A stretch of DNA of 64,000 bases from Streptomyces sp. NBC_01268 (GTDB lineage Bacteria > Actinomycetota > Actinomycetes > Streptomycetales > Streptomycetaceae), in assembly GCF_036240795.1 (NCBI RefSeq), contig NZ_CP108454.1:3038001-3102000 (forward strand), written 5' to 3'. Below the pieces are notes generated by a model. The model was given only the letters and a program-made list of their open reading frames with translations. It did no database searches and was not told the origin of the DNA. The translations under genes were made by a program, and so were the position numbers. Below, piece after piece: positions 7,285-60,040 of this stretch. Positions within the stretch are counted from its first letter, which is position 1. Each line of letters opens with the position of its first letter.

Positions 7285-8858
7285 TCTCCACGCTGGCCCG
7301 GATGGAGGCCGTCGAGTCGGGCCGGGCCCGCCCGCTGGCCACGGTCCGCCACCGGCACCTGTCCGCACGGCCCCTCGTCCTCGTACCGCTGACGACGGCC
7401 GGTGAGGCGGGGGCGCCGCTGGGGGCCCTGGTCGGCACCGACCCCGAGGAGCCCAGGCTGCTGGTGGTGCCGCAGCCGCGCGACCGGGACCTGCGCTTCG
7501 CGTTCCTGGCCGAGCTGGCCGACGCCGTCCTGCCGTACGTCGACTCGTTCACGGACGTCGTGGAGGCGGCCGAGCGCTCCGAGACCGACCCGGAGACCGG
7601 CAAGAAGGTCAAGGTCGAGGTCGAACTGTGCGCGGACGCACCGCAGCTGGTGGTGCCGGGCCGGGCGGCCGTCGAGTACGTACGGCTGCTCGGGCGCTCG
7701 ACGCGCTTCCGGCGGACGGCCGAGCAGGACCCGGAGACGCCGTTCCCGGCGCCGCCGCGGGTGCCGCTGCTCGGCCGCTGGCTGACGCACTACGGGGAGC
7801 GGGCCCGGGTGCCGGGCTCCTCGCTGCTGGTCGCGGCGACGGACCTGCTGAACCGGCACTGGGCGACGGGCCAGTCCTCCCTGGAGGACCAGCACCTGGG
7901 CGCGCTGCTGGCGTGGATCGACCCGCCGGACGGCGCGTCGGGGGCCGAGGCGGCCCTGCGGGCGGAGCTCGGGCGGGACGCGCGGGGGCAGTTGCTGTGC
8001 CCGCCGGCCGGTCCCGCGACCGACCCCGCCTTCGACAACCGGCTGCTCGCCCCCGCGATCGAGCGCTACGACCGTGCCCGGCAGGCGCTGGGCGCCGCCG
8101 AGGACGGCGAGGCGGCCGAGGCGGGTCTGGGGGAACTGCACGGGGCCGAGCGGGAGATCCGCCGGCTGCTCGCCACCCAGCTGAAGCCGACCTGGGACGC
8201 GGTGTGGCAGGCCCTCGGCCTGCTGCGGGAGCTTCCGGCGGGGGCGCGGGTCGGCGACCGCTGGACCCGCGACCGCTGGTCGTTCACGGGCCAGCGCGAC
8301 CGGATCGCCGCGGGCGAGCCGCCGCAGCCGCGCCGGGACGACGCCGTGACCGCGGCGCAGAAGCTGGCGGCGCGCGAGCAGGCGCAGGGGCAGCTGGAGG
8401 CGCAGGAGGCGCTGGACGACCCGCTGGTCCTGGCGGGGCGGCGGCTGGCGGGCGAGGCGTTCGTCGGGGAGGTGGTGGAGGTGGCGATGACGCGCACGGA
8501 GAAGGGCCGTCCGCGCCCGCTGCTCACCGTCCGCACCGAGGACCTGCCCCAGCTGGACGAGGGCGTGAAGGTGTACCGCTCGCTCGACGGCAAGCCGCAG
8601 ACGGCGGAATGCGTCCGGCGGGAGCCCGACGGCGCCGTGGTGCTGCGGGTCACGGACCGGATGGGCCGCGCGAAGGAGCCCGCGGAGGGTTCGGTGCCGG
8701 AGAAGGGCGAGCGGATCGCCTGGACCCTGTTCGAGCACGAGGCCCGGGTGGGCGCCAAGCTGCCGGACCCGGAGGAGACCCCGTGGACGCACGGCGGTCC
8801 CCCGCGCACGGACGCCGTGGAACTGCCCGATGCCGTGACGCCGGAGGACGTGCTGTGA
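7275..8858 (+). CDS. Unknown protein between RecB-like nuclease and SF1 helicase
   Basis: Soluble protein of 527 residues that I do not recognise. The N-terminal 110 residues (PLATVRHRHLSARPLVLVPL and PRLLVVPQPRDRDLRFAFL) look like a mixed alpha/beta domain. Residues about 260-390 are highly charged and helical (QKLAAREQAQGQLEAQEAL). About residues 400-500 are beta-rich (GEVVEVAMTRTEKGRPRPLLTVRT, EGVKVYRS, GAVVLRVTDRMGRAKEP), compatible with an OB-like or 1B-type barrel such as Dna2/Upf1 helicases carry; this is inference. It overlaps the nuclease gene by 10 bp and the helicase by 4 bp (GTGA), so all three are translated together and probably form one complex. Confidence 0.8.
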   Translation: MPLISTLARMEAVESGRARPLATVRHRHLSARPLVLVPLTTAGEAGAPLGALVGTDPEEPRLLVVPQPRDRDLRFAFLAELADAVLPYVDSFTDVVEAAERSETDPETGKKVKVEVELCADAPQLVVPGRAAVEYVRLLGRSTRFRRTAEQDPETPFPAPPRVPLLGRWLTHYGERARVPGSSLLVAATDLLNRHWATGQSSLEDQHLGALLAWIDPPDGASGAEAALRAELGRDARGQLLCPPAGPATDPAFDNRLLAPAIERYDRARQALGAAEDGEAAEAGLGELHGAEREIRRLLATQLKPTWDAVWQALGLLRELPAGARVGDRWTRDRWSFTGQRDRIAAGEPPQPRRDDAVTAAQKLAAREQAQGQLEAQEALDDPLVLAGRRLAGEAFVGEVVEVAMTRTEKGRPRPLLTVRTEDLPQLDEGVKVYRSLDGKPQTAECVRREPDGAVVLRVTDRMGRAKEPAEGSVPEKGERIAWTLFEHEARVGAKLPDPEETPWTHGGPPRTDAVELPDAVTPEDVL

Positions 8859-10879: not shown

Positions 10880-11509
10880 ATGACCACGTGGCTGCGCGAC
10901 GAGACGACCCCCTACGAGATCCTCCACGCCCTGCGGGATCTGGACGAGGGACGGCACCAGGCCGCGCGGGTCACCGAGGAGGGGGCCACGTGGCTCGCCT
11001 CGGCCATCGCCGAACCCCGGTCGCTGCTCGCGCTCTGGGAGGAGCACCCCGCCACTGCTGCCGTCCTGCCCTGCGGGACCGCCTTCGACGTGGTGAACGT
11101 GGAGCCGATCTTCGGGCGCCGGATGCTGGACCGGCTCTGGGCCGAGGGGCCCGGTTCCGGGCCGGTCGCCACCCACCGGGGCCGGATGCTGCTCTTCGCC
11201 GCGCCCGGCACCGCCCAGCGGCTGCCGTCCCTGCTCGACTGGGAGGAGTGGGGGCAGGCCGTGCCCCGGCCGCTCTGTCACGGCACCGGGGACGCCGTGA
11301 CGATCCCGCCGCTCGCCCCGCGCGACTCCGCGGGTCCCCGCTGGCTGGTGGCCCCCGACACCCGCTCTCCGTGGCTGCCGGGGCCCGAGGTCCTGCTCTG
11401 GGCCTGCGTCCGGGCGGCCAGGGCGGCCTCCGCCGCCGACGTGCGCGTATCGATTTTTCCTTCCACGGATCCGGGTGCTAATGTCTACGACGTCAGCAGG
11501 CGCCGCTAG
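10880..11509 (+). CDS. Primase/polymerase-like (prim-pol N-terminal) protein overlapping a tRNA gene
   Basis: Protein of 209 residues. The pattern of PCGTAFDVVNVEP (acidic residues after a Cys-Gly turn), the GPVATHRGRMLLFAAPGTA strand pair and LCHGTGDAVTIPPL matches the N-terminal archaeo-eukaryotic primase-like domain that Streptomyces genomes often carry as a short stand-alone protein. Whether it polymerises DNA is unproven. ATG 10880 lacks a clear ribosome binding site. Oddly, the reading frame stays open to a TAG at 11507-11509, inside the tRNA-Lys gene that starts at 11500, so the last codons and stop are tRNA sequence and the tRNA promoter lies inside the coding region. Confidence 0.75.
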   Translation: MTTWLRDETTPYEILHALRDLDEGRHQAARVTEEGATWLASAIAEPRSLLALWEEHPATAAVLPCGTAFDVVNVEPIFGRRMLDRLWAEGPGSGPVATHRGRMLLFAAPGTAQRLPSLLDWEEWGQAVPRPLCHGTGDAVTIPPLAPRDSAGPRWLVAPDTRSPWLPGPEVLLWACVRAARAASAADVRVSIFPSTDPGANVYDVSRRR

Positions 11510-11573
11510 CTCAGTTGGTTAGAGCAGCTGACTCTTAATCAGCGGGTCCGGGGTTCGAGTCCCTGGCGGCGCA
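11500..11573 (+). tRNA. tRNA-Lys (anticodon CUU), copy 1
   Basis: A 74-nt cloverleaf. The acceptor stem GCGCCGC pairs with GCGGCGC and the discriminator is A. The D-arm is GCTC...GAGC, the anticodon stem GCTGA/TCAGC with loop CTCTTAA (CUU), and the T-arm contains TTCGAGT. CCA is not encoded. A -10-like TAATGT (11479-11484) ends 15 bp before the gene, at the same spacing as in the other two copies. The three tRNA sequences are identical. Confidence 0.97.
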
Positions 11574-11579
11574 CCGACA

Positions 11580-11613
11580 GAAGAAGCCCCTCGCGCGAGC
11601 GGGGGGCTTCTTC
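11580..11613 (+). terminator. Terminator after tRNA-Lys copy 1
   Basis: The stem GAAGAAGCCCC...GGGGCTTCTTC with a GC-rich loop, followed by GTTT, begins 7 bp after the tRNA. It also lies 17 bp beyond the stop of the convergent protease gene, so it can act on both strands. Confidence 0.85.
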
Positions 11614-11629
11614 GTTTGCCGCGGGAGGG

Positions 11630-19503: not shown

Positions 19504-19591
19504 GGCGATCCGGCCGGTGCCGGACGGGGGCGGGTCCCGAGGGTGGTCGGAAGCACCCCTCGGGACCAGGTAATATTTTCTTCGTCAGCAG

Positions 19592-19665
19592 GCGCCGCTA
19601 GCTCAGTTGGTTAGAGCAGCTGACTCTTAATCAGCGGGTCCGGGGTTCGAGTCCCTGGCGGCGCA
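19592..19665 (+). tRNA. tRNA-Lys (anticodon CUU), copy 2
   Basis: Identical to the copy at 11500: acceptor GCGCCGC/GCGGCGC, anticodon loop CTCTTAA, CCA not encoded. A good -10 hexamer TAATAT (19571-19576) ends 15 bp upstream. The eight bases before the gene (GTCAGCAG) are also shared with the other copies. Confidence 0.97.
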
Positions 19666-19673
19666 CCGACAGA

Positions 19674-19703
19674 GGAAGCCCCTCGCGAAAGCGAGGGGCT
19701 TCC
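19674..19703 (+). terminator. Terminator after tRNA-Lys copy 2
   Basis: Perfect 13-bp stem GGAAGCCCCTCGC / GCGAGGGGCTTCC with a GAAA tetraloop, followed by TTGTTG. It starts 9 bp after the tRNA and is 44 bp from the convergent regulator stop. Confidence 0.9.
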
Positions 19704-19747
19704 TTGTTGTGCGTGCGGGGCCCGCACGCCCTGGCCGGGCGCGCGCC

Positions 19748-24334: not shown

Positions 24335-27300
24335 TCACGCGCCCTCCCCCGAGCTCGTCCGGCCCGTGTAGAACGCCACCGTCAGGTCCTTCACCAGGGC
24401 CTTGCGCTCGTAGTCGTCCAGCTCCACCAGACCACGGGAGGTCAACCGGTGGACCACGTCGTCCACCGCGTCCACGACCGAGGTCAGCACGCTGTCACGG
24501 TGCTTCGCGTCGATCGCGGCGATGCGACGGCGCTGCATCGCGGCGGCGACCTCGGGGGCGTACTCGATCCGCGTCGGCTGCGCCGAGAACACGTCGATCC
24601 CCACCGGCGCGCACTCCGCCGAGAGCATCCGGGTCAGCGCCTCGCCGACGGCCTCCGCGTCGCGCAGGGTCGGCGCGTCCTCGTGGAACGCGTCCGCCGG
24701 GAGCTGCGAGAGGACCCGGGCCATCGCCGCCTCCACCTGCTCCCGCAGGTACTCCTCGTGCCGGGCCACGCCCAGCGCGGCGCGGACCGTGTCCCGGATC
24801 CGCCACACGACCAGGACGACGACGTCCAGGGCCGTGCCCTTCGCGTCCACCGCGGGCAGCGGCTCGCTGCGCCAGTGCCGCAGGCGCACGTCCACCCGGC
24901 GGCGCTTGAGCAGGGGGCTCACCCAGAGCAGCCCGGTCCGGCGGACGGTCCCCCGGTAGTCGCCGAACAGCGTCAGGACCAGGGCGTAGCCGACCCGGCC
25001 GCGGCCGAGGCCACCGAGGAAGAACAGGGCCGCGAGGACCCCGAGCGCGAGCAGGCCCCACTGGCCGAGCGGGATCCCGTCGTACGGGCGCGAGGGCAGC
25101 CGCAGCATCCGCGCGGCCTCCTCGGGCACGACCCCCGCCCACCACACGACCGCCGCGCACCCCACCAGCGCGAACGCCCCGCCGGCCACCCCGACCCACC
25201 CCGGCAGCACCGGTCCCGGCCGCTCCACCAGCTTCGGATCGGCGGTCGGCGCGGGCCGCGCGGGCGTCCGGGCGGGAGCGGGGATCGCCCCCTTCCCCTT
25301 CTTCCGCACCGGCACGTTGGGCTTCGGCACGGGAACGGTGGCAGGCCCTCCGTCGTCACTCCCGTCACCCCCGCCCGCGTCCGGCTCCTCCCGGAACAGC
25401 AGGTGCACCGGGATGGACCCGGTCGTCTCCGCCCCGATGACGTTGCGACGCCGGGTGCCGGACGTACGGGACGGGGCGGCCACCGGGCCCGCCCCCGGGA
25501 CGGACGGCGAGGTCGCCGCGGCCCCCGACACGGAAGCGGCCACCGGCACGGCGACGGACTGGACCCGCACCCCGGCGATCCAGCCGAAGTCGCCGGAGCC
25601 GCCGGGGGCGGCCCCGGCGCGAGGAGCGCCCGGAGTCACCGCTGCGGCGGCGGACGGGGAGACGGCCGAACCGCCCGCGCGCGTCTCCACGGTGGCGGGC
25701 GCCTGAGCCGAACCGCCCGTGTCCGCCACCGCTGAGGCGGACCGACCGGGCGGGGCACCGGCGGCGGGCCGCTCCGGCGCCGACGCGCGGCCGGACCTGG
25801 CGTCCACGGTCACCGGCCCGGAGGGCGAAGCGGGCTGCGCCTGCGGCGCGGCGGGCGCGGACGTACGGTCGGGGGTCGACGTGCCGTTCCGGCCGCCGGA
25901 CGCGGGCGCCGGGGTCGGCTGGGCCGAGCGGACGGGCGCGGGCGCGGCGGGCTGCGCCGCCGGGGACCCGGCACCGGGCGCGGGGGGCGGAGCCGCCTGC
26001 GAGGAGCCGGCGGGCGAGGGAGCCTGCGGCGCAGCAGCACCTGCGGGAGCCGGCGGCCGGGCCGCCGAGAGCCCGACACCCGGCGCGGCGACCGGAGTCG
26101 GCTGCGCCGAGCGGACCGGCGCGGGAGCCGTGGGCCGCGCCGCCGAAGGCCCCGCGCCGGGCCGGGCCGCCTGGGACGCCGCTGCTGCGGCGGGCGTCGC
26201 CGGCGCCGCGTGCGGCGCGCCGGCGCCCGCCGGAGTGGTGCGCTGCGCCGCGGGCGTCGCGGCTGCGGTCGCGGGCTGGGCCGACGAGAGTCCGATGCTG
26301 GGCAGGCTGCCGCGCGTGCCCGCCCCGGCGGACGGCGCCGACGGGGCACCGGGCAGACCGGTACCCGGGGCAGTCCCGACACCCCGGTCCTGCCCGGCCG
26401 CCTGCGGCGGGGCGGAGCCGGCGGGCGTGGGCGCCACCGGAGACGTCGGGGTCGTGCGACCTGGGGCGGCCGATCCGGCGGCCCGGGGCTCCGTCGGCGA
26501 CATCGGGCGGTCGAGGCCCGGGACCGCCGGTCCTGCGGGCGGCTGCGCGAGGCCGGGACGGGCGGATCCGGCCGCCGTGGCAACCGCACCCGCGCCCGCA
26601 TCGGACGCGGCACCGCCGGACGCGGCACCGTCGAACGCGGCACCGTCGGGCGTGCCCACGGTCGGTGTCGCCGGCCGTGCGAGGCCGGTCCCGCCGGCAT
26701 CCCGCTCCAGTCGGACCGGCTGCGGCCGGTCGAGGGGGCCGGTCCGCTGCTGCTCAGCCGTCCTCGGCGACCCGTCGCGGGTCACGGGACGGGTCGCCGA
26801 GGCCCGGTCCTCCCACACCTGCCCCAGGCTCGCGGCCTCGCCCCCCGGGCCTGCCGCCCTGGAGCCGTCACCCGCCACCGGGGCCACCGCCCTGGACCCT
26901 TCACCCGCCACCGGGGCCACCGCTCGGGACCCTTCACCCGCCACCGGGCCGGCCGCGCTGGGCCCGTCACCCATCACCGGCCCCGCCGCCCTGGACCCGC
27001 CACCCGCCACCGGGGCCACCGCCCCGGACCCATCCCCCGCCACCGGCCCCACCGCCCCGGACCCGTCGCCCTCGACCGGCCCCGCACCCGCGGGCCGGCC
27101 CTCGCGCGCCTGGGTGGCGTCCGCCTTCCCGGCTCCGTCGGGAGGCTCGGTGGCGGCCCGGTCGGCGAGGTCGGGAGTCGTGGCGGAGGCGGCCGGCACG
27201 GTGGACGTGCCGGGGTTGTCCGTCGTGCCCGCGAGCGGTCCCTCCCCGGGCGCCGTGCCCGGGGGCTCGCTCGGGGGCTCGCCCGGGGTGGCGGTCGCCG

Positions 27301-27451
27301 GGGGTGCGTCCGCGGCGGGCGGCATCGGTCCGCCCGCCCCCGGCGGCCCCGCGGGGCGTAGGCGGCCGTCGGTGAGGCGGCGGGCCGTGCGGGCCGCGTC
27401 TCGGGTGGCGGCCGGGCCGGAGTCCGGGGGGTTCGGGGTCGATGCCGTCAT
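24335..27451 (-). CDS. Large SPFH/band-7 protein with Ala/Pro-rich N-terminus
   Basis: Protein of 1038 residues. The first about 700 are disordered Ala/Pro/Gly/Thr sequence that includes seven 11-residue repeats (type PVAGDGSRAVG). About 765-830 hold two or three membrane helices (VGVAGGAFALVGCAAVVWWAG, LLALGVLAALFFLGG). The C-terminal 230 residues are an SPFH domain (DYRGTVRRTGLLWVSPLL, LDVVVLVVWRIRDTVRAALG, the helix REQVEAAMARVLSQLP, and the AAMQRRRIAAIDAKHRDSVL coiled coil). Such proteins scaffold membrane microdomains. ATG 27451 follows GAGGTGG and lies 24 bp after the peptidoglycan hydrolase stop, so the two form an operon and may act together at the envelope. Confidence 0.85.
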   Translation of the reverse strand: MTASTPNPPDSGPAATRDAARTARRLTDGRLRPAGPPGAGGPMPPAADAPPATATPGEPPSEPPGTAPGEGPLAGTTDNPGTSTVPAASATTPDLADRAATEPPDGAGKADATQAREGRPAGAGPVEGDGSGAVGPVAGDGSGAVAPVAGGGSRAAGPVMGDGPSAAGPVAGEGSRAVAPVAGEGSRAVAPVAGDGSRAAGPGGEAASLGQVWEDRASATRPVTRDGSPRTAEQQRTGPLDRPQPVRLERDAGGTGLARPATPTVGTPDGAAFDGAASGGAASDAGAGAVATAAGSARPGLAQPPAGPAVPGLDRPMSPTEPRAAGSAAPGRTTPTSPVAPTPAGSAPPQAAGQDRGVGTAPGTGLPGAPSAPSAGAGTRGSLPSIGLSSAQPATAAATPAAQRTTPAGAGAPHAAPATPAAAAASQAARPGAGPSAARPTAPAPVRSAQPTPVAAPGVGLSAARPPAPAGAAAPQAPSPAGSSQAAPPPAPGAGSPAAQPAAPAPVRSAQPTPAPASGGRNGTSTPDRTSAPAAPQAQPASPSGPVTVDARSGRASAPERPAAGAPPGRSASAVADTGGSAQAPATVETRAGGSAVSPSAAAAVTPGAPRAGAAPGGSGDFGWIAGVRVQSVAVPVAASVSGAAATSPSVPGAGPVAAPSRTSGTRRRNVIGAETTGSIPVHLLFREEPDAGGGDGSDDGGPATVPVPKPNVPVRKKGKGAIPAPARTPARPAPTADPKLVERPGPVLPGWVGVAGGAFALVGCAAVVWWAGVVPEEAARMLRLPSRPYDGIPLGQWGLLALGVLAALFFLGGLGRGRVGYALVLTLFGDYRGTVRRTGLLWVSPLLKRRRVDVRLRHWRSEPLPAVDAKGTALDVVVLVVWRIRDTVRAALGVARHEEYLREQVEAAMARVLSQLPADAFHEDAPTLRDAEAVGEALTRMLSAECAPVGIDVFSAQPTRIEYAPEVAAAMQRRRIAAIDAKHRDSVLTSVVDAVDDVVHRLTSRGLVELDDYERKALVKDLTVAFYTGRTSSGEGA
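26866..27085 (-). repeat. 33-bp tandem repeat inside the SPFH gene, about seven units
   Basis: Encodes seven 11-residue units of the type PVAGDGSRAVG. Third positions vary somewhat between units while the reading frame is kept. Likely prone to copy-number change. Confidence 0.85.
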
Positions 27452-27475
27452 TCGGTCCACCTCATGCTCTCGGGG

Positions 27476-28861: not shown

Positions 28862-29045
28862 GCGTTCCCCTCCACACTCGTCAAGATCTTTTGGCGCTCC
28901 TGCACGGGCGCCAGTGTCTCAACTGTCTGGACAAATCGCATTTTGACGGATCGAAGGCTGGATACGACCATCCGACAGGCCGGGCGGGGGTCGTCAATGG
29001 TCAGGAGCAGGGTCAGGGGTCCTGTAGAGTTATCGATGTCAGCAG

Positions 29046-29119
29046 GCGCCGCTAGCTCAGTTGGTTAGAGCAGCTGACTCTTAATCAGCGGGTCCGGGGT
29101 TCGAGTCCCTGGCGGCGCA
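29046..29119 (+). tRNA. tRNA-Lys (anticodon CUU), copy 3
   Basis: Identical 74-nt sequence to the copies at 11500 and 19592. A -10-like TAGAGT (29025-29030) again ends 15 bp upstream. The downstream sequence differs from the other copies right after the discriminator base (CGCGAAG instead of CCGACAG). Confidence 0.97.
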
Positions 29120-29126
29120 CGCGAAG

Positions 29127-29162
29127 ACTGAGGCCCTTCACCGGACGGTGAAGGGCCTCAGT
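29127..29162 (+). terminator. Terminator after tRNA-Lys copy 3
   Basis: A perfect long stem ACTGAGGCCCTTCACC / GGTGAAGGGCCTCAGT with a short loop, followed by CGTATGTG. It starts 8 bp after the tRNA. Confidence 0.88.
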
Positions 29163-53046: not shown

Positions 53047-53109
53047 GGCGGGCACGATAAGCGCTGAGGCACCAACTCTCCAGGGCCGTACAGCAGTACG
53101 GTGGTCGAC

Positions 53110-54126
53110 ATGCGCCCCGACATGTCTGCCGACCACACCACCGAAGCCGAGCGCCTGCTCCGCACCGCGGGGCAGTACCCGGAGGACCGCGAACCGCTCC
53201 TGCTGCGCGCGGCGGCCCACCTGGAACTGGCCGGCGAGCGCGAGCGGGCGACGTCCCTGTACGACGCGTTGCTGTCCGACTCCCCCGCCCCGGCCTCGCC
53301 CTTCCTGATCAGGTCGCTGAAGGCGGCGAACCTGTGGGAGTACGGCCACGAGGCGGAGGCCCGCGCGATCATCGAGGGCGTCCGCCGGGCCCGCCCGTCG
53401 GACCCGGCGCCGTGGGAGATCGCGGCGGAGACGCTGGAGTCCCACGACGAGCTGGAGGAGGCGGAGGCCACGTTCACGGAGGCGGCCGGGCTGCTCCTGC
53501 CGCAGCCGGCCTCGTCCGCCGACGACATCTCGTACGCCCTGCAGTCCCTCCTGGCGGCCCGCCACCGCGTCCGCCGGCTGCTGGCGCTGCCGCACGACCA
53601 GCACGACACCCTGGCGGACCGGCTCCACACCGGGGACGTCCCCCTGGACGAGCTGCACGACCCGAAGCGCCTGTGGTCCCTGGGCTCGTCGGACCCGGCC
53701 GAACTCCAGGCCGAGATCACCCGCCTCCGCTCGGAACTGGGCTCCTACCGCACCGCCCTGTCCCGCCCCTTCCCGGTAGCCGTCCTGCACTGGCCGGAAG
53801 CGGAACTGGACGAGCTCCTGGCGGCCTACCCGGAGCTGGAGGCGGAGTACCCGACCTACCGGGCGCACCTGACGGACATCGAGGCCTCCCTCCGCGAACT
53901 CGCGGCCGCGGGCACCCCGAACCTGGGCATCGTCCCCGCCACGGTCCCCTCCTACGAAGCCTTCGCCGCCTCGGAAGCCTCCACCCCCGCCAACCCGGAC
54001 CTGCTGCCGCAGTACGCCACGACCTTGGCGGCCCGGGGACGGGCGACGGCTTGGCCGCCGCTGCGGGGGGCGGCTTGCTGGTGCGGGTCGGGGCGGGCTT
54101 ACGGGGAGTGCCACGGGGTGGAGTGA
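53110..54126 (+). CDS. SEC-C-motif protein with TPR-like N-terminus
   Basis: Protein of 338 residues. About 1-170 are helical repeats (EAERLLRTAGQYPEDREPLL, LELAGERERATSLYDALL). The C-terminus ACWCGSGRAYGECHG is a SEC-C zinc motif (CxCGSG...CHG) that in SecA and other proteins binds zinc. Role unknown, perhaps a ribosome- or SecB-linked adaptor. The start could also be GTG 53101. It is divergent from the class E sortase and the last GC-rich gene before the AT-richer cassette. Confidence 0.87.
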   Translation: MRPDMSADHTTEAERLLRTAGQYPEDREPLLLRAAAHLELAGERERATSLYDALLSDSPAPASPFLIRSLKAANLWEYGHEAEARAIIEGVRRARPSDPAPWEIAAETLESHDELEEAEATFTEAAGLLLPQPASSADDISYALQSLLAARHRVRRLLALPHDQHDTLADRLHTGDVPLDELHDPKRLWSLGSSDPAELQAEITRLRSELGSYRTALSRPFPVAVLHWPEAELDELLAAYPELEAEYPTYRAHLTDIEASLRELAAAGTPNLGIVPATVPSYEAFAASEASTPANPDLLPQYATTLAARGRATAWPPLRGAACWCGSGRAYGECHGVE

Positions 54127-54136
54127 TCAGCTCGCC

Positions 54137-54187
54137 AGCTATCGGGTTCGCGCATCACCGAGAGATTGTCGGTGATGCCTGATAGCT
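54137..54187. promoter_or_regulatory. Nested inverted repeats at the left edge of the cassette
   Basis: Inner arms GCATCACCGA and TCGGTGATGC (54152-54161, 54169-54178) are perfect with a 7-base loop. Outer arms AGCTATC and GATAGCT (54137-54143, 54181-54187) are also perfect. Together they form a long two-step stem directly before the helicase. It could be an operator, a structured leader or an insertion boundary. Confidence 0.6.
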
Positions 54188-54217
54188 ATGGTGCGGTTGA
54201 TCAGGGAGGGAATCACG

Positions 54218-57200
54218 ATGAGCGAGCTATCGGACTCCAGCGGGCCGGTGTCGGGGCTCTACGAGCAGTTGGTAACCCTGCGACTCGAAGCACAGCTCAA
54301 GGAACTCGCAGGTCGGGGCGGCCATGCGATCGATGATGTCGTCGGCCCCGAGTCTTCCCCCCGCGTCCTTGCACGGCACGTGTCCGACACAGTGCGTCGC
54401 ATCCTGGAACGGTTGCCCGCAACAGAACACGTACACGCGGCCAATCACATCCTCGAATCGATGAACACCATCGAGGGCGCTCGTGAATGGGTCGAGCTCG
54501 TCGCCGATGGCCCACGCCAGCTCCTTGCAGTCGCCGGGCAAGAAGACCAGGACGTCCACCGAACCCGACCTGCGACTCCGCTGTCGGAGGCTGCCCTCCT
54601 CACCAATGCACCTGAGGACCCCAGCCTTGGATTCGAGCTGCGGGCGGAGCTTGCCACGGCTGATCGGGTAGACCTGCTGTGCGCCTTCGTGAAGTGGCAC
54701 GGTCTGCGGGTCATCGAGCAGTCGCTGGAAGCAGCTCACGCGCGAGGCGTCCCGATCCGAGTGATCACGACTACCTACATCGGGGCAACAGAGCGGCAAG
54801 CCCTCGACCGGCTCGTGAAGCGCTTCAACGCCGAGGTGAAGGTCAACTACGAGCTCCGCTCGACCCGCCTCCACGCCAAGGCCTGGCTGTTCCGCCGAGA
54901 CAGCGGATACGACACGGCGTACGTCGGCAGCTCCAACCTGTCGAAGGCAGCGCTCCTCGACGGACTGGAGTGGAACGTTCGTCTGTCGTCCGTGGCGACA
55001 CCGGACGCGGTCCGTAAGTTCGAGGCAACCTTCGATGCCTATTGGAGCGACCCGGCTTTCGAGGCGTACGACCCCGATCACGACGCCGAGCGACTCAGCG
55101 AGGCGCTCCGGGTAGCCGGCCAAGGCAAGAGCACAGCAGCGGACCAGCCGATCACGCTGTCAGGTCTGGAAGTACGACCGTACGCACACCAGCGGGACAT
55201 GCTGGAACGGCTCCAGGTGGAGCGCGAGGTTCACGGCCGACACCGGAACCTCCTCGTGGCAGCAACAGGCACGGGCAAGACCGTCATGGCAGCGCTGGAC
55301 TACAAGCAACTTCGGCAGCAGCACGGCCGTGACCTGCGACTTCTGTTCATCGCTCACCGACAGGAGATTCTGCGCCAGTCACTTCGCACGTATCAGGACG
55401 TGCTCGTAGACGCCAACTTCGGGGAGGAGCTACACAGCGGGCACGCACCTGCCCGGTGGCAGCACGTCTTCGCGAGCGTGCAGTCGCTGAAGCCACAAAG
55501 GCTGGAGCAGCTGCCGCCCGACCACTTCGACGTCATCGTCATTGACGAGTTCCACCACGGGGTCTCTTCGACCTACCAAAGGATCATTGACCACTTCCGC
55601 CCCGTGGAGTTCCTGGGACTCACCGCGACTCCGGAGCGTATGGATGGTCGCAACGTCCAGGACGAGTTCTTCGAAGGACGCATCGCCGCGGAGATGCGAC
55701 TGTGGGAGGCGCTGGAGAACGACCTGCTGAGCCCGTTCCACTACTTCGGGATCACCGACACCACTGACATGAGCGCCGTTGCGTGGAAGCGCGGGGTCTA
55801 CGACTCGACGGCGCTCAGCGCACTGTTCACGGGCAATGACGCCCGCGCGCGGCTCGTCGTGCAGGCTGTACGTGACAAGGTCGCCAACCCAGGGGCCATG
55901 CGTGCCCTCGGCTTCTGCGTCTCCGTTGCCCATGCCACCTTCATGGCGGAGTTCTTCCGACGCGCCGGTCTCAAGGCGCTTGCCCTGTCCGGCGAAAGTC
56001 CGCACGAGGAACGCAAGGCCGCGTTGGCTGCCCTTCGCGCCGGCGAGATCCAAGTGATCTTCTCGGTCGACCTGTTCAACGAAGGCTTGGACATCCCGGA
56101 CGTCGACACCCTCCTCCTGCTGCGCCCGACGTCCAGCGCCACGGTCTTTCTTCAGCAACTGGGCCGCGGGCTCCGACGCACGCAGAACAAGGCGGTCCTC
56201 ACGGTCCTGGACTTCATCGGACAGCACCGCAAGGAGTTCCGCTTCGAAGAGCAGTTCCGCGCGCTGACCAACCTGACGCGGAACCGTCTCCTCGCCAACA
56301 TGGAGCACGACTTCCCCCAGTTGCCATCCGGCTGCCAGATCATCCTTGAGTCGAAGGCCAAGGAACTAATCATCGACAACATCCGCAGCCAGATCAGCGT
56401 CAACGTCACGCAGCTCGTGCAGGAGGTCAGGCGGTACGGGGTGCCGCAACTCTCGGCGTACCTGCACGAAAGCGGTCGGGAACTCAAGGAGATCTACCGC
56501 GGCAACGGCAACTCGTGGACGGGGCTCCTCCGCCGGTCCGGATTGCTGCCGAAGGAGGCTCCGGAAGGCGAGGAGGCACTCCTGAAGCGCGTGTCCGCAT
56601 TCCACCACGCCGACGACCCCGAACGAATCGCCGCATACACCACGATCCTTGAGGACGACGCTCCTCGCTACAGCGACCTGAGCGAGCGCAACCAAGCGTT
56701 CGCCCGCATGCTCTACTTCTCGCTCTGGCCCCTCAGCGGCTTTACCAGCTACGAGGAAGGGCTGGAGTCACTTCGTCCCCAGTACGCCTTCCGAAGCGAA
56801 CTCCGCCAGGTGTTGGCGTACGCACTGGACCGACTAGACCATGTCCCGATTGCCTTGCGGGGCTCACTCGCCGGCCTCTCATTGACCGTCCACGCGTCCT
56901 ACAGCCGCGAGGAGATCCTCCCCGCCCTGGGCCAGTCCTTCGTGGACCGCGACGTACCTGGCCACTTCCGCGAGGGCGTCAAGTGGTGCGACCACACCAA
57001 GACGGATGCTCTGTTCATCACCCTCGAAAAGGATGAGAAGGACTTCTCTCCCCAAACGCGCTATCACGACTACGCCCTGAGCGAGATCCTCTTCCACTGG
57101 GAGTCCCAGAACCGAACGTCGGATACGTCAGCAACGGGTCGCCGCTACCAAACTCACAGAGAAGACGGCTCTCACATCCTCCTCTTCGTCCGCCGCTACA

Positions 57201-57355
57201 AGAAAACCGACATCGGCGGCCCCCAGCCGTGGATACTGCTTGGCCCGGCAGAGTACGTCAAACACAAGGGCAGCAAGCCTATGGGCATCACGTGGAAGCT
57301 GAAGCACGAGATCCCTGCAGACGTGTGGACCTACTCTGCGGTCGCAGCCGGATAG
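54218..57355 (+). CDS. PLD nuclease-SF2 helicase-DUF3427 protein
   Basis: Protein of 1045 residues. The N-terminal PLD-like nuclease (about 130-290) has one HxK site (RLHAKAWLF, His219 and Lys221) with VGSSNLSKAAL. The SF2 helicase (about 320-700) has Walker A VAATGTGKT (Lys354), DEFHH (443-447), LTATPER and FLQQLGRGLRR. A C-terminal DUF3427-like domain (about 850-1045) follows. This layout is known from restriction-like systems that act on foreign DNA. GGGAGGG precedes ATG 54218. Codon use is clearly more AT-rich than that of the neighbours. DUF262 and HEPN genes follow. Confidence 0.92.
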   Translation: MSELSDSSGPVSGLYEQLVTLRLEAQLKELAGRGGHAIDDVVGPESSPRVLARHVSDTVRRILERLPATEHVHAANHILESMNTIEGAREWVELVADGPRQLLAVAGQEDQDVHRTRPATPLSEAALLTNAPEDPSLGFELRAELATADRVDLLCAFVKWHGLRVIEQSLEAAHARGVPIRVITTTYIGATERQALDRLVKRFNAEVKVNYELRSTRLHAKAWLFRRDSGYDTAYVGSSNLSKAALLDGLEWNVRLSSVATPDAVRKFEATFDAYWSDPAFEAYDPDHDAERLSEALRVAGQGKSTAADQPITLSGLEVRPYAHQRDMLERLQVEREVHGRHRNLLVAATGTGKTVMAALDYKQLRQQHGRDLRLLFIAHRQEILRQSLRTYQDVLVDANFGEELHSGHAPARWQHVFASVQSLKPQRLEQLPPDHFDVIVIDEFHHGVSSTYQRIIDHFRPVEFLGLTATPERMDGRNVQDEFFEGRIAAEMRLWEALENDLLSPFHYFGITDTTDMSAVAWKRGVYDSTALSALFTGNDARARLVVQAVRDKVANPGAMRALGFCVSVAHATFMAEFFRRAGLKALALSGESPHEERKAALAALRAGEIQVIFSVDLFNEGLDIPDVDTLLLLRPTSSATVFLQQLGRGLRRTQNKAVLTVLDFIGQHRKEFRFEEQFRALTNLTRNRLLANMEHDFPQLPSGCQIILESKAKELIIDNIRSQISVNVTQLVQEVRRYGVPQLSAYLHESGRELKEIYRGNGNSWTGLLRRSGLLPKEAPEGEEALLKRVSAFHHADDPERIAAYTTILEDDAPRYSDLSERNQAFARMLYFSLWPLSGFTSYEEGLESLRPQYAFRSELRQVLAYALDRLDHVPIALRGSLAGLSLTVHASYSREEILPALGQSFVDRDVPGHFREGVKWCDHTKTDALFITLEKDEKDFSPQTRYHDYALSEILFHWESQNRTSDTSATGRRYQTHREDGSHILLFVRRYKKTDIGGPQPWILLGPAEYVKHKGSKPMGITWKLKHEIPADVWTYSAVAAG

Positions 57356-57399
57356 TCGAGAGAACCATTGAATATCCATCACCCCAAAAAGGAAAGAGA

Positions 57400-58617
57400 A
57401 TGGCGCGTACACACGAAATCAATAACGACGCCTATGACGACCTGGACGGCGAGGAGAACGAGCCATCCAATGTCTCATCCACAGACGTCACTCGCGCTGT
57501 AGTCACCGATACAGACTGGACGACTGAAACGATCCTGAGCCAGCTTCGGCGAGGAAACATTCAGCTCAACCCGAAGTTCCAGCGCCGTGACGCCTGGGAC
57601 AAGGCCAGGAAGAGCAAGTTTATTGAATCCCTCATCCTCGGGTTGCCGATCCCGCAGATCGTCTTGGCCGAGGACAAGAAGCAGCGGGGAAAATTTATCG
57701 TCCTCGACGGAAAGCAGCGGCTACTCGCGCTTCGACAATTCGCAGCTGGCTCATCATTCGCCGTATCGAAAGAGGAGCAAGACTTTAAGGGCTTCAATTT
57801 GACCAGCCTCGACGTGAGGGACGACTTGCGTCTGAAAACGCTGGAAAAAATGGAGAACGATAGCGAATTGGTCGACGATTTGAATGCGTTCCTCAATGAA
57901 ACGATTCGGACTGTCGTAGTCCGCCGTTGGCCCAACGAGGAGTTCTTGAACCTCGTATTCCTTCGCCTCAACACGGGAAGCGTCAGACTCTCCCCCCAGG
58001 AGCTGCGACAGGCCCTCCACCCTGGCCCGTTCACCAATTACCTAGACGACGCGGCATCCGCCAGCACGTGGCTCCGCAGCGCACTGCGCATCAAGAAGCC
58101 TGACTTCCGAATGCGTGACGTGGAAATAATGCTGCGATTCTTCGCCTTCCGCTACCACCTCAAGGACTATACCGGAAACCTGAAGTCGTTCCTCGACGGG
58201 ACGGTCAACACTCTCAACGATGCCTGGGAGCAACACGAAGACGAGATCAAGGAAGTCGGACAATCCTGCGAGAAGGCAATCCAGGTGACATTCGAGATCT
58301 TCGGCGATAATTCGTTCTACCGGTGGTCCGACGGCGACTATGAGGGGCGTTTCAATCGCGCCGTCTTTGACGTCATGACGCACTACTTTTCCGATGAGGG
58401 AATCGCCGCTGCTGCAATCGCCCATGGCGACGATGTCGAGGCCGCCTTCAAGAGGATCTGCGAACAGGATAGTAAGTTCGTGGAATCAATCCAGACCACA
58501 ACGAAGACCCCCGTGGCGACCCATCGACGCTTGAGCACTTGGGGTACCGAACTGGCTTCCATCATTGGCATCCCCGTGCCAATTCCCGGGTTTAGCGGCA
58601 ATCGAATCTTGACGTGA
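57400..58617 (+). CDS. DUF262-domain (GmrS-like ParB-fold) protein
   Basis: Protein of 405 residues. The DUF262 core is seen in QLNPKFQRRDAWD (about 55-67) and VLDGKQRLLALRQF (about 101-114), the family's NPxFQR and DGxQR motifs. DUF262 proteins include nucleotide-dependent restriction enzymes (GmrSD) and BrxU. There is no DUF1524 HNH domain on this polypeptide, so it would need a partner for nuclease action. AAGGAAAGAG precedes ATG 57400, 44 bp after the helicase stop. AT-rich codon use. Confidence 0.9.
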   Translation: MARTHEINNDAYDDLDGEENEPSNVSSTDVTRAVVTDTDWTTETILSQLRRGNIQLNPKFQRRDAWDKARKSKFIESLILGLPIPQIVLAEDKKQRGKFIVLDGKQRLLALRQFAAGSSFAVSKEEQDFKGFNLTSLDVRDDLRLKTLEKMENDSELVDDLNAFLNETIRTVVVRRWPNEEFLNLVFLRLNTGSVRLSPQELRQALHPGPFTNYLDDAASASTWLRSALRIKKPDFRMRDVEIMLRFFAFRYHLKDYTGNLKSFLDGTVNTLNDAWEQHEDEIKEVGQSCEKAIQVTFEIFGDNSFYRWSDGDYEGRFNRAVFDVMTHYFSDEGIAAAAIAHGDDVEAAFKRICEQDSKFVESIQTTTKTPVATHRRLSTWGTELASIIGIPVPIPGFSGNRILT

Positions 58618-58631
58618 GAGGGAGGTTCCCC

Positions 58632-59249
58632 GTGCCTTCTTCACGTTACAGAACCCTGTCCCGCCGGGTGAACGAACTCAGACGACACCTCATACCCCGC
58701 ACATTCGAACCGACCGGACTCTACTCCGACAGGGTCTACGAACACGCTCGCGCTTTCCGTGTACTCGCCCACGCAGAGTTTGAGTCGTACATAGAAGATA
58801 GGGCAATAGAGGTCGTACAGCGGGCGCACACCACCTGGGATGCGACAGGAAGAGTCCGGCCATGCCTCCTCGCCTTAATGTCGCACAGGGAATCAAAAAT
58901 CGACATACCCGACACTCTCTCCGAAGTGAGGGATTCATCTACGAAGTATCCGACGCTCAAGGGTCGCATAGAAATCGCAAAGAAGCGATACAGCACCTAC
59001 ATCCGCCGAGAAAATCACGGAATAAAGGAGCGAAACCTTCTACTAATCCTACTCCCTATCGGAATATCAAGAGAAGAGATCAACTCTGAATGGCTGGAAA
59101 CAACTGACGGTTGGGCCACGGCCCGAGGGGAGGTCGCCCACACTTCACCGAAGGTGCAGCATCAGATAAATCCCCAAATCGAACTACAAACCGTCAATAC
59201 AATCCTGAAGGGATTCAAGGAAATCGACGTAATCCTTGACGAAAAATAA
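58632..59249 (+). CDS. HEPN-domain putative RNase (RiboL-PSP / MAE_28990 type)
   Basis: Protein of 205 residues. The HEPN signatures are FRVLAHAEFESYIEDRAIE (helix with conserved Glu) and ARGEVAHTS, giving RxxxxH (Arg165, His170), the canonical RNase motif. Such HEPN proteins are known to be encoded beside DUF262 genes. GTG 58632 follows GGGAGG; another GTG at 58614 overlaps the previous stop. AT-rich codon use. Predicted effect: RNA cleavage leading to abortive infection when triggered. Stop is TAA. Confidence 0.85.
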   Translation: MPSSRYRTLSRRVNELRRHLIPRTFEPTGLYSDRVYEHARAFRVLAHAEFESYIEDRAIEVVQRAHTTWDATGRVRPCLLALMSHRESKIDIPDTLSEVRDSSTKYPTLKGRIEIAKKRYSTYIRRENHGIKERNLLLILLPIGISREEINSEWLETTDGWATARGEVAHTSPKVQHQINPQIELQTVNTILKGFKEIDVILDEK

Positions 59250-59311: not shown

Positions 59312-60040
59312 TCAGCCGAGGTAGGGGTACGTGCCAACCAGGTAGTCGCCGATCTGCTGGCGCATGCTGGGGTGGATGTCGTACTGGTCGAGGTCGGCCG
59401 GCTGGACGAAGCAGACGCCATCGGCCTCGTCGTTGATCGTGGGTTCGCCCGCGACGGGCCTGCCGATGTACGTGTTCTCGTACTGCTGGCGGATCTCACC
59501 GTCGGTGTACGCCACGATGTGGCGGGGGTTCGTGTAGACGCCCAGGAAGCCCGTGATCTCGGCAGTGATCCCCGTCTCCTCCAGGCATTCACGCAACGCG
59601 CACTCAGCAGCCGTCTCCCCGATGTCCTGGGCGCCACCCGGCAGTGCCCACTGGCCGGTGTCGCGGCGGCGCTGGAGCAGGATGGCGCCGGCATCGTCGA
59701 CGACCAGCAGGTTGCTGGCGGGGATGAGCGTGTTGGCCTTCGGGGCGTTGGGATCGTTGTAGTACTCAGTCCTGCCCATGGACGGCGGTCCCTCCTGATT
59801 GGGTGTGCAGTGTCGTGCGCCGGCCGAGACGGCTTCGGGTGCCTGAGCGTGGTGCTGCCCTCCACCGGCGGGCTCCGTCACCGTGAGCGTCTCAGGGTCC
59901 TCGGCCTCCCAAGGGTCGCCCCCGCCCCAGACGTGGCGCAGGACGTACACCGTGCCCCCTCGGACGTCAGTCACGATGGCTTTCCTGTTGGTGGCCTCGT
60001 CGTGTACCTGGTCGCCCACCCAGGGCTTGCCGTCCTTCAC
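59312..60040 (-). CDS. Two-part protein: short KOW/hypothetical domain fused in frame to NUDIX hydrolase
   Basis: 242 residues from GTG 60040, which overlaps the stop of the ATP-binding gene. About 1-60 (GDQVHDEATNRKAIVTDVRGGTVYVLR...WEAEDPETLTV) match a short protein usually encoded alone in Streptomyces regulator clusters. About 85-242 are a NUDIX domain with GGAQDIGETAAECALRECLEETG (NUDIX box: GX5EX7REUXEEXGU). The ATG at 59779 (MGRTEYYN) has AGGAGGG and would yield the NUDIX part (155 residues) alone. No stop separates them. Both forms may be made. NUDIX hydrolases clean up or sense nucleotide diphosphates. Confidence 0.8.
   Translation of the reverse strand: MKDGKPWVGDQVHDEATNRKAIVTDVRGGTVYVLRHVWGGGDPWEAEDPETLTVTEPAGGGQHHAQAPEAVSAGARHCTPNQEGPPSMGRTEYYNDPNAPKANTLIPASNLLVVDDAGAILLQRRRDTGQWALPGGAQDIGETAAECALRECLEETGITAEITGFLGVYTNPRHIVAYTDGEIRQQYENTYIGRPVAGEPTINDEADGVCFVQPADLDQYDIHPSMRQQIGDYLVGTYPYLG

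Follow-up and report, generated by a model that had tools for sequence, protein, structure and literature searches.

The locus examined here lies in a 64,000-nucleotide stretch of the genome of Streptomyces sp. NBC_01268 (hereafter, the window), in which inspection of the open reading frames (ORFs) revealed three adjacent intact frames, all on the plus strand. Their likely starts, judged from ribosome-binding sites and relatives, are ATG at 54218, ATG at 57400, and GTG at 58632. Gene 1 encodes a putative SauUSI-type type IV restriction enzyme, gene 2 a DUF262 protein, and gene 3 an HEPN RNase-like protein. An earlier note, made from the letters of the DNA, had taken the three for parts of one defense system. 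The frames are present, as are motifs of the kinds that it named (HAK of the PLD nuclease, ATGTGKT, and DEFH in gene 1; NPxFQR and DGKQR in gene 2; R165-x4-H170 in gene 3), its residue numbers K354, R165, and H170 agree with the starts above, and all three genes belong to defense-type families. The occurrence of these genes in other genomes points instead to two independent immune modules lying side by side in an insertion hotspot, namely, a restriction enzyme acting alone and a conserved DUF262-HEPN pair proposed to work as sensor and RNase. We consider this full explanation probable.

Among 295 genomes of the genus, 91 carried a SauUSI-like gene at E up to 1e-60, and nine carried the pair. 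The two modules occurred together in six of those nine genomes and were neighbors in two, in tandem in the present genome (G000) and convergently in G182, so that the tandem trio occurred in 1 of the 295. In a wider set of 80 DUF262 loci, the fetched flanks contained a SauUSI-like gene in two cases (L105, which corresponds to G182, and L107), convergent both times. A single three-gene operon was rejected on these neighborhood counts. This is the outcome that the earlier note itself had named as refuting its reading; SauUSI-type enzymes, in addition, act as single polypeptides.

Genes 2 and 3 form an operon of their own. The HEPN gene lay directly 3' of the DUF262 gene in 76 of the 80 loci, with a median gap of 8 bp, and in all nine genus genomes with this HEPN (9/295) the DUF262 gene was found directly 5' on the same strand, which bears out the earlier remark that HEPN genes occur beside DUF262 genes. 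The 80 loci are the best of 108 relatives in one-genome-per-species contigs; the search profile was built from an alignment of HEPN-linked DUF262 proteins, and thus the ratio of 76/80 describes this clade and not DUF262 proteins at large. Six of the loci (L099, L102, L103, L105, L106, and L110) are identical with genus loci. Flanks of up to 10 kb were fetched; for 55 of the 80 loci they span 5 kb or more on each side. Among the 76 HEPN frames, five are shorter than 190 amino acids (L099, L111, L144, L152, and L176), L099 and L111 being situated at contig ends. When the four exceptions were read by eye, one contig ended inside the HEPN start (L165), two loci had an apparently broken HEPN start (L167 and L172), and at most a few HEPN residues were left in L169. 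In this last locus, from Microcystis wesenbergii, the HEPN is lost after position 7338, and an ORF that reads by eye like a DNA cytosine methyltransferase lies behind the DUF262 gene.

The pair is spread over at least seven phyla. The 76 DUF262 rows belong to Pseudomonadota (21), Actinomycetota (20), Cyanobacteriota (20), Acidobacteriota (5), Chloroflexota (3), Thermodesulfobacteriota (2), Verrucomicrobiota (2), and two further groups with one row each; one row had no group. When ORFs of at least 110 amino acids within 6 kb were compared, the most widely shared other neighbor family occurred in 7 of the 76 loci, and the larger clusters consisted of ORFs overlapping the pair on the other strand. 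Among 199 relatives from 55 genera, the HEPN was found in two, this genome and G020. No match to the HEPN was obtained in 50,697 phage records, and profile comparison of two single HEPN proteins (L181 and L182) with the window HEPN gave nothing. Five of 16 plasmid matches were examined; the pair is carried by a Rhodococcus and a Rhizobium plasmid (L179, 6051-6737; L180, 6014-6787), for which the HEPN gene is missing in the PLSDB gene table.

Table 1. Features of the locus in window coordinates
Feature	Position	Strand	Basis
Gene for a SEC-C motif protein, which marks the fixed left boundary of the variable site	53101..54126	+	Pfam PF02810
Inverted repeat 5' of the SauUSI-like gene	54137..54190	none	Fold z -4.6
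PafBC / RecA-NDp-like promoter element, TTGTCGGTG-N8-TAGCTA	54166..54188	+	Motif counts
Putative SauUSI-type type IV restriction enzyme gene (gene 1)	54218..57355	+	Pfam, PADLOC, 7clg
DUF262 protein gene (gene 2)	57400..58617	+	Pfam PF03235 (GmrSD_N)
HEPN RNase-like gene (gene 3), PF18735 (HEPN_RiboL-PSP), R165-x4-H170	58632..59249	+	Pfam
NUDIX gene, further cargo of the site, outside the pair	59312..60040	-	Pfam, opposite strand

The DUF262 protein is 405 amino acids long, and its predicted model (predicted local distance difference test [pLDDT] score of 89.8) comprises a nucleoside triphosphatase (NTPase)-like domain of the ParB/Srx fold at about residues 30 to 195, followed by an all-helical half. 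PF03235 was its only Pfam match; neither a Pfam match for DUF1524/HNH nor a DHxxP motif was present. The nearest solved structures are BrxU and SspE, with BrxU first in both fold comparisons. Across 39 chosen rows (alignment A4; L099, L109, L163, and L177 were omitted due to in-frame stops), DGKQR was kept in all 39, and the letters of NPxFQR were kept in 22 (N), 38 (P), 35 (F), 39 (Q), and 39 (R). In the HEPN protein, R165 and H170 were invariant in all 60 chosen rows of alignment A3. Its model has a pLDDT of 91, and the top eight rows of the fold comparison are HEPN toxins. A Foldseek search against the PDB gave no match below 0.001 for either model.

A DUF262 gene followed by an HEPN gene is a known architecture. 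PD-T4-2, which guards Escherichia coli against T4 and whose deletion allows T4 to plaque on the native strain (PMC9519451), is listed as DUF262 plus a PF18735 HEPN (PMC10952713), a printed make-up that the earlier note had missed. In addition, a table of the 2013 survey by Anantharaman et al. gives the RiboL-PSP HEPN family as "operon with ParB," an entry with no system, mechanism, or test attached (PMC3710099). A real PD-T4-2 pair, L205, was the sole match in 229 genomes searched. Like the window pair, it is a two-gene operon in which DUF262 precedes a short HEPN (R-x4-H); it scored 527 bits with PD-T4-2_A and 209 bits with PD-T4-2_B, matching three PD-T4-2_B models. The window DUF262 protein, in contrast, reached 128 bits with PD-T4-2_A and 225 bits with the PADLOC NsnA model, and the window HEPN matched no family, PD-T4-2_B included, at E up to 10. 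The profile of the window HEPN family gave 8.1 bits (E 0.019) with the L205 HEPN (1501-2004). The latter had no Pfam match at 0.001, even though the review lists PD-T4-2 under PF18735 (PMC10952713), the family to which the window HEPN belongs.

In an unrooted tree of 36 DUF262 proteins, for which rows were accepted when the DUF262 frame or the AAA start was clear, the 23 rows of the window family, which had been picked by similarity, were set apart by a branch supported at 100/98, and PD-T4-2, whose rows are long branches, fell on its other side. The AAA-linked (Menshen-type) rows likewise had their own side of a branch (100/98), and PD-T4-2 belonged to neither group. L182 and L053, with HEPN-type partners, were placed beside the AAA-linked rows, and thus HEPN-linked DUF262 proteins overall are not one group; the partner in L053 was called HEPN by our own reading and scores 2.0 bits with the window HEPN profile. 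Identity of the pair with PD-T4-2 outright was rejected on the models and the tree, alike as the gene order is. Identity with Menshen, the system of the best-scoring model, was also rejected. All seven DUF262 proteins scanned, among them HEPN-linked ones, were matched by the NsnA model, and such a match is therefore not enough to show Menshen. Moreover, a Menshen-type NsnA (L183) scores 362 bits, and its partner NsnB is an AAA ATPase, whereas the window partner is an HEPN and the next gene is a NUDIX gene on the other strand. Thus, judged by models and tree, the lineage is distinct within a known architecture, and no paper naming it was found in the parts of the works covered by our literature search.

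The window protein shares the ParB/Srx-fold DUF262 domain and the DG[KQ]QR nucleotide motif with GmrSD, BrxU, and SspE, which are restriction proteins (PMC10952713), but it lacks their DUF1524/HNH nuclease, and a separate HEPN stands in the effector place. Similarly, the HEPN domain with R-x4-6-H is common to HEPN-MNT toxin-antitoxin modules according to Pfam, residues, and model, but the partner here is a DUF262 protein and not an MNT nucleotidyltransferase.

Gene 1 matched the PADLOC model mREase_IV with 1505 bits and the Pfam families ResIII, Helicase_C, PLDc_2, and DUF3427. Its best solved relative is the crystal structure of SauUSI from Staphylococcus aureus (7clg), with an E value of 2.2e-85 over residues 154 to 685. 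As in SauUSI, one chain carries a PLD nuclease with HxK, then the SF2 ATPase motifs, and then the C-terminal DUF3427/target-recognition region. SauUSI acts as a single polypeptide and performs ATP-dependent cutting of DNA containing 5-methylcytosine or 5-hydroxymethylcytosine (PMC3874153; PMC7913695). Because of this homology and because SauUSI acts as a single polypeptide, gene 1 was read as encoding a stand-alone type IV restriction enzyme, and its predicted activity follows that of its relative. The gene 1 product is about 90 residues longer than SauUSI, and a second match to 7clg in the C-terminal region is weak (12.8 bits); thus, its target preference may differ. A damage-type promoter element upstream of the gene is a further difference from SauUSI.

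A consensus of tTGTCRgtg-8nt-TAnnnT has been printed for the RecA-independent promoter (PMC5656591), and PafBC works via this promoter motif in mycobacteria (PMC6789036). A loose form of this PafBC/RecA-NDp-like element was found 5' of 17 of 30 SauUSI-like genes, gene 1 included, where 0.05 was expected from flanking sequence; the 30 stretches are the best-scoring of the SauUSI-like loci found, the relatives are linked by common ancestry, and five of the stretches besides that of gene 1 had been seen before the pattern was fixed. In this genome, the strict motif was counted 20 times and the reversed pattern 0 times. Among the genes behind the strict motif are recA, uracil-DNA glycosylase, dnaX, and dnaN, as identified by reading translations only. 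The copy at gene 1 is outside these 20. Since it does not keep the final T of the -10 element, a DNA damage-inducible promoter of gene 1 is a lead only. The inverted repeat in which the element lies was rejected as a conserved hairpin, as five relatives, compared by eye, keep only its right half; it was this conserved half that led to the promoter-like element within it.

The two modules also differ in composition. The guanine-plus-cytosine (GC) fractions of genes 1, 2, and 3 are 0.636, 0.556, and 0.519, whereas the upstream gene has 0.745 and the window as a whole 0.726, which confirms the lower GC of the cassette noticed earlier. Gene 1 is therefore unlike the pair as well as the flank. In six fetched loci, the GC fractions of gene 1 relatives range from 0.616 to 0.650, and those of the pair range from 0.51 to 0.56 in seven other genomes. 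As the same values return in other genomes, the difference is tied to the modules and not to this strain.

Both modules are cargo of an insertion hotspot that extends from the SEC-C gene at window position 53101 to G000:C1:3104943, where a DUF445 gene beyond the window end converges on the SEC-C gene. The SEC-C gene was present in 240 and the DUF445 gene in 291 of the 295 genus genomes (E 1e-80). The interval between them, in the 70 genomes taken from the matches listed (at least four further comparable genomes were left out), ranged from 278 bp (G094) to 76 kb, with a median of 18.8 kb. In 52 of 56 genomes, the SauUSI-like gene shared contig and strand with the SEC-C gene and lay 3' of it, at a median gap of 461 bp; these 56 are those of the 91 genomes with a SauUSI-like gene whose SEC-C place was among the matches listed. 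The earlier description of the cassette as lying between ordinary Streptomyces genes holds only in part: upstream, the neighboring gene forms the fixed boundary of the site, and downstream genes with GC fractions of 0.63 to 0.70 continue to the window end and beyond.

The content of the site varied considerably. It was nearly empty in G094 and G187; it held a SauUSI-like gene and one small gene in G076 and G041, the pair without a SauUSI-like gene in G200, and both modules, with the pair inverted, in G182. Elsewhere, the pair was found away from the site, on a contig other than that of the SEC-C gene (G020 and G222) or at a distance of about 0.9 Mb (G273) or 1.2 Mb (G170) from it. For G223 and G258, a contig end or the lack of a DUF445 gene within the fetched 15.6 kb prevented placement of the pair. 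Given the variable intervals and the occurrence of the modules singly, together, or inverted, the two are separate cargo of one hotspot.

For gene 1, a course of action known for SauUSI would apply by homology: the C-terminal domain would recognize cytosine-modified foreign DNA, recognition would switch on the SF2 motor, which would translocate, and a dimer would cut the DNA with its PLD domains. For the pair, it is most likely that the DUF262 protein senses infection and the HEPN cleaves RNA. The former, in which the HNH nuclease carried by GmrSD, BrxU, and SspE is absent, would act as an NTP-binding sensor with a ParB/Srx fold. Upon infection, it would release or activate its HEPN partner, whose R165/H170 site would cut RNA, so that phage growth would stop, probably together with the cell. 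We infer the trigger, the RNA cleavage, and the defense role of the pair. More tentatively, the pair could represent a separate, unnamed line of immunity in which an NTPase resembling a modified-DNA sensor has lost its nuclease and switches an HEPN RNase, such that DNA is sensed and RNA is cut, and which in Streptomyces shares a hotspot with a type IV enzyme and its damage-type promoter; we regard this as possible rather than established.

Several observations weigh against a division into two modules. Genes 1 and 2 are on the same strand, 44 bp apart, a SauUSI-like gene is also present in six of the nine pair genomes, and the two co-occur above chance in the genus (0.027). The proposal of the earlier note, that helicase/PLD, DUF262, and HEPN proteins form one system, nevertheless seems highly improbable in view of the single tandem trio in the genus, the two convergent cases in the wider set, and the ability of SauUSI to act alone. 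Gene 1 might also be mainly a DNA-repair or damage-response enzyme, a RadD-like helicase with a PLD nuclease, and not a restriction enzyme. The damage-type element before 17 of 30 genes and the occurrence of the gene in 91 of 295 species fit this idea, as does the fact that RadD is the best NCBIfam model for gene 1, although its 101 bits are far under the cutoff of 720. The far stronger matches to SauUSI and mREase_IV, the complete SauUSI domain order including DUF3427, and the patchy occurrence in an insertion hotspot make such a role rather unlikely.

For genes 2 and 3, the explanation to be weighed is a toxin-antitoxin (addiction) module in which the DUF262 protein neutralizes the HEPN toxin and any effect on phages is secondary. 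In favor of this reading, the two genes form an operon in which the putative antitoxin comes first, the HEPN model is most like the HEPN toxins of HEPN-MNT modules, and members of the pair family reside on two plasmids. On the other hand, a conserved NTPase-like protein of 405 amino acids with an unchanging DGKQR is more than a binder needs, the DUF262 relatives BrxU, SspE, and GmrSD are restriction proteins, and T4 is able to plaque on the native strain of PD-T4-2 once that system is deleted. We therefore hold an addiction module to be a serious candidate but not a likely one.

No enrichment of defense genes around the pair could be shown with PADLOC at 1e-15: six families, with one protein each, were matched among 88 neighbors versus 36 families among 98 controls. 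The neighbor set consisted of 89 called proteins minus the SauUSI-like one in G182, and the control set of 102 proteins minus four long ones. As the controls matched more families, the test does not discriminate; 19 of the 25 control families listed were PD-T4-6 models. In seven Streptomyces pair loci (L074 to L078, L080, and L081; alignment A5), 6 of the 88 neighbor proteins were GntR regulators and 2 were DUF2637 proteins. Both are common in Streptomyces conjugative elements, which suggests a mobile origin of the pair. Elsewhere in the window, three tRNA-Lys(ctt) genes lie within copies of a 138-nt repeat (11479-11616, 19571-19708, and 29025-29162), of which the other two share 92% and 79% identity with the first, and tandem repeats with a 33-bp period (26812-27129) lie inside a minus-strand ORF of 1041 amino acids (24335-27460).

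In summary, a false three-gene system is replaced by a clear, conserved DUF262-HEPN operon. PADLOC-DB 2023 detects this pair only through the DUF262 models NsnA and PD-T4-2_A, and its HEPN goes undetected. The SEC-C to DUF445 interval provides a named insertion site in Streptomyces, a place to seek further defense genes. If the damage-type promoter of the type IV enzyme is real, restriction could increase in response to DNA breaks that form in the course of infection. If the proposed sensor-RNase mechanism is true, one NTP-switch domain would have been wired to different effectors, HNH, AAA, and HEPN.

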